A DNA stretch of 64,000 nucleotides from Cytobacillus oceanisediminis 2691 (GTDB lineage Bacteria > Bacillota > Bacilli > Bacillales > Cytobacillaceae): contig NZ_VEEP01000009.1 in assembly GCF_007678455.1 (NCBI RefSeq), forward strand, positions 94,172 through 158,171, read 5' to 3'. Numbering within the stretch: the stretch's first letter is position 1; every line of letters starts with the position of its first letter. Below are positions 28,455 to 54,170 of the stretch, one piece after another. The notes under the pieces were generated by a model. The model searched no databases. It saw only the letters and a list, made by a program, of their open reading frames with translations, and was not told the origin of the DNA. The position numbers and the translations under genes were made by a program.

Positions 28455-28750
28455 TTGAAAAGCCTAATGACCATTGCCGCTTGTGAATTGGAATTGAAAA
28501 CTGGAATATTGAAAAGAAACTAAGTGACAGCGCTGTTTGTGAATTGGATTAGAAAACTGAAAAAATGGAAAGTACCTTATTGACATCGTCGCTTGTGATT
28601 TGGAATTGAAAACTGACAAAAAGAAAAGTACCTTATTGACATTGTCGCTTGTGATTTGGAATTGAAACTGACAAAAAGAAAAGTACCTTATTGACATTGT
28701 CGCTTGTGATTTGGAATTGAAAACTGAAATAACGAAAAGTACCTTAAGAA
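28455..28750. repeat. 56-bp tandem repeat array downstream of sda
   Basis: Five copies, judged by the TTGTG landmark at 28481, 28537, 28593, 28649 and 28704 (periods 56, 56, 56, 55). The best-conserved units contain AAAGTACCTTATTGACATTG then TCGCTTGTGATTTGG, AATTGAAAACTGACAAAAAG. The first two are more diverged. The period is not a multiple of three, so it does not encode a repeated peptide. The array lies between sda and a terminator, so it may be the transcribed 3' region of sda. Confidence 0.9.
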
Positions 28751-28751
28751 A

Positions 28752-28794
28752 ATCGCCGCTTTGCTGCCTGATTGGCAGTGGAGCGGTTTTTTTT
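28752..28794 (+). terminator. Terminator closing the sda / 56-bp array transcript
   Basis: CCGCT and CTGCC pair with AGCGG and GGCAG through an internal loop, followed by eight T. Confidence 0.8.
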
Positions 28795-28873
28795 GTCGGA
28801 TGTTGTTAACAAAAAATTCACAAATGTCTGTGAGCAATTAGCTTACAATAAAAATATAGAAAGGAAGTGGACC

Positions 28874-29782
28874 ATGTTACTTAAAGTACGCACCGAGCCA
28901 TTGGAATTATTAACATTAAGGTATTTGAACAAACGAATGGATTTGCCCTCAAATGAAAAATTCAGGTTGAAGTCTATGGAAAAAGGTTATACAGGCGAAT
29001 TGATATTCGACAGGATGACCGAAAGCCTATCGGAAGAAAGGTATATCATTGACGACCTGCTCCTCCAGGTGAATAATTCATATTTCCAGCTTGATAAAGT
29101 GATCATTTCCAAGGATGCGGTTTATCTTAACGATGTGAAATATCACGAAGGAGATTATTATATCGATGGAGAAAAATTGTTATCCTTCAATAGCGGAAGA
29201 GAGCAAAAAAACCCTGTCATCCAATTAAAACGAAGTGAAACCCTATTCCGTCAGCTGCTCCAAAACTTTAACATGGACCACCTCGTCCGTGCCTCCGCCG
29301 TCTTCGTCAACCCTGAATTCACCCTTTACCAGGCCCCCATAGATCAACCAATCATTCTACCAACACAAGTAAAAAGATTTATTAAAGAGCTAAACAACAC
29401 ACCCTCTGCATTGGACAAGAGCCATCAGAAACTAGCTCAAACCCTGCTTTCAATGCATCAAACTAAAAATCCATATTCCACTTTTCCAAATTACAAATAT
29501 GAACAGCTGGAAAAAGGAATGCATTGCCGGGAATGTGGGTCATTGAATACTGAGGTAGATCATTACGACCTCGTTTGCGGAAAGTGCGGAACACATGAAA
29601 GAATCGAAAAGGCGATCCTGCGACATATAGAGGAAATCAAGGTACTTTTTCCTGAAATAAAAATCACCACACAAAATATTTATGATTGGTGTAATGGGAA
29701 GGTTAGTAAGAGGACATTCTTGAGAGTTTTGAAGAAGAACTATAAAACAGTTGGCAAGACAAAAGACGTATATTTTGAATGA
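28874..29782 (+). CDS. NERD-domain protein with C-terminal zinc ribbon
   Basis: A 302-residue protein. The start with AAAGGAAGTGG upstream is preferred; the ORF extends 34 codons further but through a terminator. The region GYTGELIFDRM (about 36-46) to YYIDGEKLLSF (about 103) matches the nuclease-related NERD domain of Bacillus. Near residue 217 begins a zinc ribbon, CRECGSL and CGKCGTH, followed by a helical tail. NERD proteins are thought to act on nucleic acids, but function is not proven. It lies between two tandem repeat arrays. Confidence 0.8.
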   Translation: MLLKVRTEPLELLTLRYLNKRMDLPSNEKFRLKSMEKGYTGELIFDRMTESLSEERYIIDDLLLQVNNSYFQLDKVIISKDAVYLNDVKYHEGDYYIDGEKLLSFNSGREQKNPVIQLKRSETLFRQLLQNFNMDHLVRASAVFVNPEFTLYQAPIDQPIILPTQVKRFIKELNNTPSALDKSHQKLAQTLLSMHQTKNPYSTFPNYKYEQLEKGMHCRECGSLNTEVDHYDLVCGKCGTHERIEKAILRHIEEIKVLFPEIKITTQNIYDWCNGKVSKRTFLRVLKKNYKTVGKTKDVYFE

Positions 29783-29834
29783 TTGCTGAGTTGGTGACTA
29801 TCTGGGGTTTAAATCCTAAGGTTAGACACGGTTC

Positions 29835-30360
29835 ATGACAGCTTAGCGGCTTCAACCTCCAAACCTGTCAAAATAACATCACTTTCTTGACAGCTTAGCG
29901 GCTTCAACCTTCAAACCTGTCACAATAACATCACTTTCTTGACAGCTTTGGCGCTTCATCCTTCATACCTGTCAAAATAATATCGGTTTTTTGACAGTTT
30001 AGCGGCTTCCTCCTCCAATCCTGTCAAAATAACATCACTTTCTTGACAGCTTTGGCGCTCTCTCCTCCAATCCTGTCAAAATAACATCACTTTCTTGACA
30101 GCTTTGGCGCTCTTTCCTTCAAACCTGTCAAATTAACAACACTTTCTTGACAGCTTTGGAGCTTCATCCTCCAAACCTGTCAAAATAACATCACTTTCTT
30201 GACAGCTTTGGCGCTCTTTCCTTCAAACCTGTCAAAATAACAACACTTTCTTGACACCTTTGGCGCTTCATCCTCCAAACCTGTCAAAATAATATCGGTT
30301 TTTTGACAGCTTAGCGGCTTCATCCTCCAAACCTGTCAAAATAACATCGATTTCTTGACA
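29835..30360. repeat. 52-bp tandem repeat array 1 (TTGACAG / CTGTCAA)
   Basis: TTGACA-type landmarks fall at 29835 (ATGACA), 29887, 29939, 29991, 30043, 30095, 30147, 30199, 30251, 30303 and 30355: ten units of exactly 52 bp. Each unit has TTGACAGCTT at positions 1-10, a variable block 12-25, CAAACCTGTCAAAAT at about 26-40, and a second variable block. TTGACAG and CTGTCAA form dyads in both directions. The array fills most of the 671 bp between the NERD gene and the odhB terminator. It contains no coding frame and no CRISPR-style unique spacers. Confidence 0.97.
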
Positions 30361-30416
30361 AACTTCACAGCTCCAGAGTTCGATCGCTAGCCACCGCTCA
30401 ATTCTCAAATAAGACG

Positions 30417-30446
30417 AAAAGCACTGCCAATCTCGGCAGTGCTTTT
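30417..30446 (-). terminator. Terminator of the odhAB operon
   Basis: AAAAGCACTGCC / GGCAGTGCTTTT with a 6-nt loop. Confidence 0.9.
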
Positions 30447-30453
30447 CCAATAC

Positions 30454-31743
30454 TTATCCCTGCAACAACAATGATTCTGGGTCTTCCATGAGCTGTTTAA
30501 TGTGTTTCAAGAAGGTAACTGCTTCTTTTCCGTCAACAATCCTGTGGTCGTAGGATAGGGCGATGTACATCATTGGCCTGTTTTCCATGCGGTCCCTATC
30601 GATTGCTACTGGACGAAGCTGGATGGTGTGCATGCCAAGGATTCCTACCTGCGGGCCGTTGAGGATTGGCGTTGATAGCAATGATCCGAACACGCCTCCA
30701 TTTGTGATCGTGAAGCTTCCACCCTGAAGGTCTTTCAAGGATAACTTGTTCGATCTCGCTTTTTCGGCGAGATCATTGATGTCGCGTTCGATCTCAGCAA
30801 AGTTTTTCCTGTCGGCATCCCTGATTACTGGGACAACCAGTCCTTCATCTGCAGCAACTGCGACACCGATGTCGTAAAATTTCTTCAGGACAAACTCGTC
30901 ACCCTGGATTTCTGCATTCAGATACGGTGTCTTCTTCAATGCTGCGACAACCGCTTTTGTAAAGAAAGACATGAAGCCTAGGCGGACATCGTTTTCTTCA
31001 AAGAAGCGGTCCTTCCACTTCTTTCTCAATTCCATGACGGCTGTCATGTCGACTTCATTGAAGGTTGTTAGCATGGCTGCTGTTTGTTGTACCTCTACCA
31101 GCCTATTGGCGATGGTCTGCCGTCTTCTTGACATCTTGATGCGTTCAAAGCGAGTATTATCCTCATTGGCAGCAGCTGCGGGTGCCGCTTTTTCCGGCCT
31201 GTTATTTGCAGGCTTGTTGTCTTCTGGCTTTTGCTGGTTAGGGGTATACGATTCAACATCCTGCTTCCTGACTCTTCCAAGTGGATCCTGAGAAGACACC
31301 TGGTTCAGGTTGATCCCCTTTTCCCTCGCAAGTTTTCGTGCTGCAGGAGAAGCAATAACCCGGCCCTGACTGTCATCATCTGCAGAATGTTCTTCCCTGC
31401 CAGCTTGGTTTTCAGGTTGTGCGCTCTGAGTTTGTTGATTTTCAGCAGGTTCATCTGGGGATTCAGCTTCCTTGCCCTGTTCCTCAGCTTTGATCTGTTC
31501 TCCGCCAGCTTGTTCACCTACAACTGCTATGGCTTCCCCAACTTTAACAGTATCGCCTTCTTCCGCAAGCAGTTCTGTCAAAACTCCATCATAATCAGAA
31601 ATAATTTCCACATTGACTTTATCCGTTTCCAGTTCAACGATATATTCACCTTTTTGGACTTGGTCACCCTTTTGTTTCAGCCACTGGGCAATCGTTCCTT
31701 CGGTAATTGATTCAGCGAGTTCAGGAACTTTAATTTCTGCCAT
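30454..31743 (-). CDS. odhB: 2-oxoglutarate dehydrogenase E2, dihydrolipoyl succinyltransferase
   Basis: A 429-residue acyltransferase of the TCA cycle complex. Domains in order: lipoyl domain with the lipoylated lysine in [12 protein letters not shown] (about 37-48), a Glu/Gln/Pro-rich linker, the E1/E3-binding domain ([18 protein letters not shown], about 129-146), a second linker, and the catalytic domain ending in [12 protein letters not shown] with the active histidine. GAGGAGG precedes the ATG. It overlaps the end of odhA by 14 nt in another frame, so translation is coupled. Confidence 0.96.
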
Positions 31744-53701: not shown

Positions 53702-53785
53702 GCGGGTGTGGCGGAATCGGCAGACGCGCTAGATTCAGGTTCTAGTGGTGGCAACACCGTGGAGGTTCAAGTCCTCTCATCCGCA
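53702..53785 (+). tRNA. tRNA-Leu (anticodon CAG)
   Basis: A class II tRNA of about 84 nt. The acceptor stem pairs GCGGGTG (53702-53708) with CATCCGC (53778-53784), followed by discriminator A. The anticodon arm CTAGA-TTCAGGT-TCTAG gives anticodon CAG at 53736-53738, reading CUG codons. A long variable arm (TGGTGGCAACACCGT) and the GGTTCAAGTCC T-loop are present. CCA is not encoded. Confidence 0.97.
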
Positions 53786-53903: not shown

Positions 53904-54170
53904 TTGACTGCCTTGGCTCCTAAACCTTCAAACCTGTCAAAATCATGGGACTTTCTTGACAGCTTTAGCCCCTCTGCCTGCAAACCTGTCAAAATTATGG
54001 TGCTTTTTTGACAGCTTTAGATCCTCTGCCTGCAAACCTGTCAAAATTATGGTGCTTTTTTGACAGCTTTAGATCCTCTGCCTGCAAACCTGTCAAAATA
54101 CTAACCCTTTCTTGACAGCTTCACCTTCTCCACCTATAAAACTGTCAAATTAAAAGCGTTTTTCTGGCAG
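53904..54170. repeat. 52-bp tandem repeat array 2 (TTGACAG / CTGTCAA)
   Basis: TTGACA-type landmarks at 53904 (TTGACT), 53956, 54008, 54060, 54112 and 54164 (CTGGCA) give five units of exactly 52 bp. The conserved blocks TTGACAGCTTT and CAAACCTGTCAAAA are the same as in array 1. The variable blocks differ (TAGATCCTCTGCCTG here). The two central units are nearly identical, and the outer ones decay. It lies between tRNA-Leu and ydjO, in a 496-bp gap with no supported ORF. Confidence 0.97.

Follow-up and report, generated by a model that had tools for sequence, protein, structure and literature searches.

The tandem array at 29836..30360 of the window, the window being the whole stretch of 64,000 nucleotides of Cytobacillus oceanisediminis 2691 analysed here, is a real element and a member of a published, unexplained class of 52-nt satellites in Bacillus. 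The orientation of its relatives across the genus nearly always follows the replication fork and the units share a core of two paired half-sites, and both properties are worth following; the literature searched suggests that they are new.

The 52-bp arrays of the window

The features concerned are the following, with coordinates in the window.

29836..30360, minus strand: 52-bp array 1, 10 units plus edge half-sites
53912..54170 (dyads 53934-54170), minus strand: 52-bp array 2, 5 units with degenerate edges, of the same family and polarity as array 1
30454..31743, minus strand: odhB, 2-oxoacid dehydrogenase acyltransferase (PF00198), right flank of array 1
30416..30447, minus strand: intrinsic-terminator-like hairpin (14 pairs) that follows odhB and precedes array 1
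28772..29782, plus strand: NERD-domain protein (PF08378) of a multi-copy family, left flank of array 1

The ten units and exact 52-bp period described by the initial annotation are borne out by a dyad scan, which found CTGTCAA-N15-TTGACAG ten times at 29865-30361 with at most one mismatch each, all nine gaps between the dyads being exactly 52 bp. The other half-site spacing is TTGACAG-N23-CTGTCAA (7+15+7+23=52), and the unit is asymmetric by a conserved mismatch of the outer bases. Tandem Repeats Finder places the array at 29832-30360 with period 52, 10.2 copies and 86% matches. In its leading-strand (G) form, found on the minus strand, array 1 reads GCTGTCAA-RAAA..TTATT-TTGACAGG-TT..AAA. In line with the initial annotation, it is unlikely to be coding, because its stop-free stretches never exceed 51 codons in any frame.

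A tRNA-Leu (CAG) gene lies upstream of array 2, at 53702-53785. A different tandem array, with a 56-bp unit in 4.9 copies, is found at 28472-28761, to the left of the gene for the NERD protein. Within the loci examined, which cover part of the genome, its motifs occur only in the window and at the same place in genome G123.

Arrays in the source genome and in relatives

Array 1 is not unique. The source genome, a 4.9 Mb draft in 477 contigs, holds about 30 arrays of 52 bp, two of them at contig ends and probably halves of one, and the search that located them gave 61 matching pieces. Dyads with at most two mismatches number 365, against 9 for a reversed control pattern, which excludes a chance origin. 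From one dyad to the next there are 324 gaps, and 312 of these measure 52 bp exactly. Arrays of this class are placed between genes and on both chromosome arms. By rough ORF calls, 17 of the 28 arrays with genes called on both sides lie between tandem genes, 6 between convergent and 5 between divergent ones. This bears on the suggestion that array 1 terminates or insulates convergent transcripts: its own flanking genes are convergent, but a large majority of the other gaps are tandem or divergent, and the terminator-like hairpin of odhB is separate from the array. The number of terminator-like hairpins in the array 1 region is at chance level. A terminator or insulator between convergent genes is therefore regarded as highly improbable.

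Of 193 genomes of the family, 23 gave matches. The same genus accounts for 17 of them, out of 21 genomes, and the rest belong to genera g3 (two), g49 (three) and g5 (one); the g5 genome and one g49 genome have a single match only. A 59-bp pattern that fixes the period of 52 had at least 30 matches in fifteen of the 19 congeners other than the source, and none in G002, G008, G010 and G014. The arrays are dispensable, since four of the 21 genus genomes have no match, G010 being only 66% complete. When a tree of OdhB is rooted at its midpoint, three of the array-less genomes make up one of the two sides, whereas the fourth stands beside array-bearing groups, with a support of 91/93 that is below the threshold of the program.

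Relatives with freely varying periods or without conserved dyads, which would have spoken for neutral duplication, were looked for and not found: among gaps of 30-80 bp in the loci scanned, 967 of 994 are 52 bp and the others 50, 51 or 53, in a set where some loci overlap and gaps above 80 bp, corresponding to a missed unit, are left out. Among the matches listed, Mesobacillus boroniphilus, Robertmurraya kyonggiensis, R. yapensis and Aquibacillus koreensis are carriers, and many of the single matches listed for a variable-gap pattern over genome contigs look like chance. The Aquibacillus array (L124:1249-1500) keeps the period of 52, but its half-sites start at intervals of 20 and 32 bp where the usual ones are 22 and 30. 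Short TTGACAG/CTGTCAA clusters with other spacings in Olsenella and Atopobiaceae (L058, L073, L108) are a different element. Contigs labelled 'Chryseobacterium sp. ISL-80' (JAGGQZ; L052, L070, L084, L091, L101, L107, L109, L128) align at about 84-93% to loci of the source genome, and the label looks wrong because the genome they align to belongs to the Bacillaceae.

Anatomy of the unit

The consensus of 312 units from 30 source-genome arrays, normalised for polarity, is AAA-GCTGTCAA-RAAA-variable-ATT-TTGACAGG-TT-variable-AAA. Each unit has two inverted half-sites with the core TGTC-N19-GACA, whose starts are spaced by 22 and 30 bp. Just outside each half-site, 96% of weighted units have a G; in array 1 this outer base reads C on the plus strand at both half-sites and G on the leading strand. 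The mirror positions 0 and 30 accordingly form a conserved G.G mismatch of the dyad, and positions 10 and 20 are mostly A.A. Because the leading strand keeps G outside both half-sites, the 52-bp unit has a direction.

Conserved and variable blocks had been noted in each unit, and the difference between units of the same array agrees with this, being 0.057 in core columns against 0.236 in variable columns. The blocks between the half-sites recur within arrays, which differs from the unique, unrelated spacers of CRISPR. At one edge of L021, L024 and L041 another unit type is found (AAGTA.. beside the half-site, with CG/CG or similar replacing AA/TT), and the interiors are of the common type, as if overwritten from within.

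History of the array sites

Array sites are of old standing, as the array after odhB occupies the same gap in 14 of the 21 genus genomes. Of the remainder, G013 is cut by a contig end after unit 1, the contig of G006 ends too early, and five genomes lack the array, four of them being array-less throughout by the pattern used. The unit type at this site varies by species, RAAA..TTATT or AAG..CTT, and the period stays at 52, occasionally 50 or 51, across the types. Twelve of 29 source-genome loci have at least two flanking genes in common with an array retrieved from G009 or G019, and two more share one; a good part of the arrays occupy the same site in different species. Between the two genomes available for the species of the window, copy number after odhB differs, 10 versus 15, and is equal at two further loci, 13 versus 13.

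Orientation and the replication fork

Most source-genome arrays are almost purely G-form or C-form, and in 28 of 30 it is the one that flanking GC skew in this draft genome would predict. L048, which is among the two that disagree, corresponds to L236 of G018 (array masked), where the skew is near zero; this region of G018 is the terminus zone. The fork itself was addressed in six closed congener genomes, with the origin taken from dnaA and BLAST hits merged, some of them weak. The orientation predicted by the fork was found in 148 of 159 array places, and in 139 of the 147 that remained once those less than about 6% from the midpoint had been removed; for hits of at least 100 bits the numbers were 96 of 103 and, away from the midpoint, 92 of 97. 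Agreement was complete in G009 (23/23) and G019 (30/30). These counts are not independent events, because array sites are common to several species. Among the named loci, 15 of 18 scored agree with the local skew, including both Robertmurraya loci and that of Aquibacillus.

Orientation tracks replication better than it tracks the flanking genes. A polarity set by the flanking genes was rejected: of the 17 arrays in tandem gaps, 11 are co-oriented with their neighbours and 6 are not.

Truly reversed arrays are L029 with its G123 copy L229, L239 of G018 with its G015 counterpart L242, and L243 of G016, whereas the apparent exceptions L230 and L240 agree with the local skew by their marker bases. 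Mixed arrays, in which either the outer and inner blocks are opposed or the two sides differ, one having G and the other C, are L047/L230, L101 and L241; arrays whose two sides differ in this way are present also in G009 and G019. What seems to be the L029 locus in ISL-80 has its right flank aligned at 93% and its left flank not; its outer markers are mostly C, whereas the inner block has retained the opposite sense. This hints that conversion or selection has re-polarised the array where it stands.

The agreement with flank skew raises the question of whether polarity is a passive effect of strand composition on symmetric repeats. The arrays' own GC skew is mostly of the same sign as that of the flanks, and larger, and the 28 of 30 arrays that agree are also what such an effect would give. 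The evidence from genus g49 leans the same way, as it is mostly GC skew itself. In that sample of 60 stretches (1.2 of 4.9 Mb), Tandem Repeats Finder reported 13 rows of 51-53 bp corresponding to 12 arrays, of which 4 have the core. In 10 of the 12 arrays (11 of 13 rows) the array and its flanks concur in skew, most of the arrays being judged by their own GC skew alone. All three arrays of the g49 family TGTC(C/T)TTCAT flip with the sign of the skew, and the sole sequence marker there distinguishes C from T, a difference for which mutation bias could also account. As far as it goes, the sample from this second genus is in agreement with the polarity. In the source genome, however, both marker columns are 96% G against a skew of 0.21 at the variable columns, turning G into C takes a transversion, and L029, although reversed, holds to its own polarity, with 28 of 28 markers retained against a flank skew of -0.12. 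The polarity mark does not come from local composition alone, and skew acting passively on symmetric repeats is a most unlikely explanation.

Stretches L259, L262, L264 and L273 of genome G185 contain 21- and 42-bp repeats beside the 52-bp ones, and these match the second published size class.

The main rival explanation is that of a selfish or neutral satellite, spread by way of the single-stranded lagging-strand template, whose orientation was set at insertion and not by function. Polarity without function is what insertion coupled to the lagging strand would be expected to leave. Of the 30 arrays, 29 were folded (DNA parameters), and in all 29 the G-form strand, which is the lagging-strand template, folds better than the complementary one, an advantage that is partly one of composition since mononucleotide shuffles behave likewise (-19.4 versus -15.1). 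Arrays also come and go, as the 12 of 29 loci with shared flanking genes illustrate, and copy number differs at one of the three loci compared. Protection of the half-sites is what the satellite does not explain: they stay intact inside arrays while adjacent bases drift, and the period remains 52 through the replacement of unit types at the odhB site. No insertion enzyme was found for it, Y1 transposase (PF01797) being unmatched in G006 and G015, and no array match was obtained in viral contigs (exact pattern), plasmids or phages. A satellite of this kind is held to be rather improbable.

Pairing and folding

Both strands of the array fold better than shuffles (z of -8.7 and -10.8), and this strong folding of both strands is due to the array being an inverted tandem repeat. 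It is also what a precursor of repeated small hairpin RNAs, another of the roles first proposed, would show. Covariation of the dyads, the check named with that proposal, was analysed in 82 arrays with 914 units from several species. Watson-Crick pairing was about that of independent columns at most pairs, and equal to or below it outside four pairs, where a slight excess was seen: 6-24 (0.76 versus 0.73), 7-23 (0.35 versus 0.31), 10-20 (0.21 versus 0.14) and 36-46 (0.30 versus 0.25). G.T pairs tend to persist on the G-form strand, with 63 T-G versus 6 C-A at pair 1-29 and G-T in 185 of 312 at pair 8-22; such retention fits either a structured strand or a strand-biased C-to-T mutation.

The hairpin reading can thus point to the small excess at a few pairs and to the kept G.T pairs, and the 52-nt repeats of B. 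coagulans are reported to be transcribed, by RNA-seq (PMC8625621). The G.T preference suits strand-specific mutation equally well, though, and the mismatches G.G (0-30) and A.A (10-20) are the common state. Orientation follows replication better than the flanking genes, the sole promoter-like site of the array 1 region equals the chance number and lies outside the array, and no Rfam family was over its cut-off or near one. Hairpin RNAs are considered very unlikely, and a cruciform was rejected on the same grounds of folding and pairing.

The half-sites are kept, the blocks between them drift and there is little covariation, which together favour binding to double-stranded DNA over a hairpin RNA. 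On balance, spaced half-sites are more probably recognised in double-stranded DNA than as a conserved hairpin, while the pairing excess at four pairs and the CG/CG edge units leave some room for a structured strand.

A possible directional nucleoprotein array

A phased protein-binding array, one of the readings offered by the initial annotation, fits best with the fixed period, the conserved half-sites, the variable blocks and the near absence of pair covariation. A putative double-strand DNA-binding protein would occupy the half-sites, which are expected to lie near one face of the helix, since spacings of 22, 30 and 52 bp correspond to about 2.1, 2.9 and 5 turns. The protein may then polymerise into a directional nucleoprotein strip. 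The most likely job of such a strip would be that of an oriented mark on the chromosome arms, tolerated or read by the machinery that travels from origin to terminus, be it the replication fork, a DNA translocase or SMC, and serving nucleoid organisation or segregation. The fixed period, same-face spacing, protected half-sites and direction mark are all in keeping with a directional nucleoprotein array, and we give this reading, from the bound half-sites to the oriented arm mark, a modest preference. Points that speak against it are the four array-less genomes, the reversed and mixed arrays, the copy-number difference at one of three loci, the transcription reported for B. coagulans and the 22 of 27 published units in which the core is missing.

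A bolder version is speculative and rather doubtful: a polarity code of the chromosome arms, in which TGTC-N19-GACA arrays, at intervals of some 160 kb, would be coated by directional filaments of a dedicated candidate protein. Were it true, traffic from origin to terminus (fork, SMC, translocase) would pass and opposite traffic would be stopped or turned, a behaviour likened to that of oriented CTCF sites acting on cohesin.

The NERD protein was rejected as a partner. The 17 genomes of the genus that bear arrays have 6-10 matches to it apiece, but it is found also in array-less ones (6 in G002, 3 in G008, 5 in G014; 0 in the 66% complete G010). RTP and Y1 transposase were likewise rejected, their phyletic pattern being unfit. 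The candidates looked at yielded no binding protein. The NERD-domain family reaches 10 matches per genome in genus g1, fragments included, which is unusually many.

As to the initial annotation overall, the array and the protein-binding reading stood, the claim of novelty fell, and the polarity and its link to replication had been missed.

Comparison with known systems

The fork traps RTP-Ter and Tus-Ter are polar, protein-bound inverted sites. RTP-Ter sites are clustered at the terminus, whereas the 52-bp arrays occur on both arms from origin to terminus, an 11-unit array in G009 being only 62 kb from dnaA. RTP (PF02334) was over its cut-off of 26.7 bits in none of 20 genus genomes, five of which reached 21.6-22.9 bits.

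Mycobacterial minisatellites of the MIRU-VNTR type are dispersed intergenic tandem arrays of varying copy number. The arrays described here differ from them in a period fixed at 52 bp across species and in fork polarity. As for REP/RAYT elements, Y1 transposase is present in most of the other genomes and goes unmatched in G006 and G015, although both are rich in arrays, with some 240 units per genome.

KOPS of FtsK and SRS of SpoIIIE, which the gamma domain of these translocases reads, resemble the arrays in being genome-wide and oriented from origin to terminus, but are single 8-bp motifs where the 52-bp elements are phased arrays. The SRS octamer occurs 0 times in 18,101 bp of arrays.

The initial annotation held that no described element fits; 52-nt tandem repeats have, however, been published for about 30% of the Bacillus species studied, in 176 genomes (Subirana & Messeguer 2021, PMC8161180). 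They are of constant length with species-specific sequences, contain short motifs and their reverse, are shared by B. selenatarsenatis, B. boroniphilus and B. subterraneus, and are of unexplained function, a nucleoid protein or small RNAs being discussed. The present arrays are alike in the 52 nt with occasional 51 or 53, in many arrays per genome and in variable copy number; they have at least four repeats at a constant 52 (51-53) and conserved motifs along with their reverse, and array 1, the one for which coding was assessed, is most likely non-coding. In the main text of that paper the words orientation, replichore, polarity, origin of replication and terminus are absent. No report on the polarity of 52-nt repeats was found in the literature searched as full text, a scope that a 2020 J. 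Bacteriol. paper falls outside.

PMC8161180 sees no sequence conservation among the repeats. TGTC-N19-GACA is nevertheless present in 5 of the 27 consensus units of its Table 1, under four species names, and absent from the other 22; units with shuffled letters gave a mean of 0.01 and a maximum of 1 in 2000 rounds, and other TGTC/GACA gaps, from 4 to 44, occurred once or never. Against the published description, what stands out here is this shared core together with fork polarity, and the two turn a published enigma into a directed question as to which protein and which direction-sensitive machine are involved; if confirmed, the arrays would be a new type of oriented chromosome-arm element.
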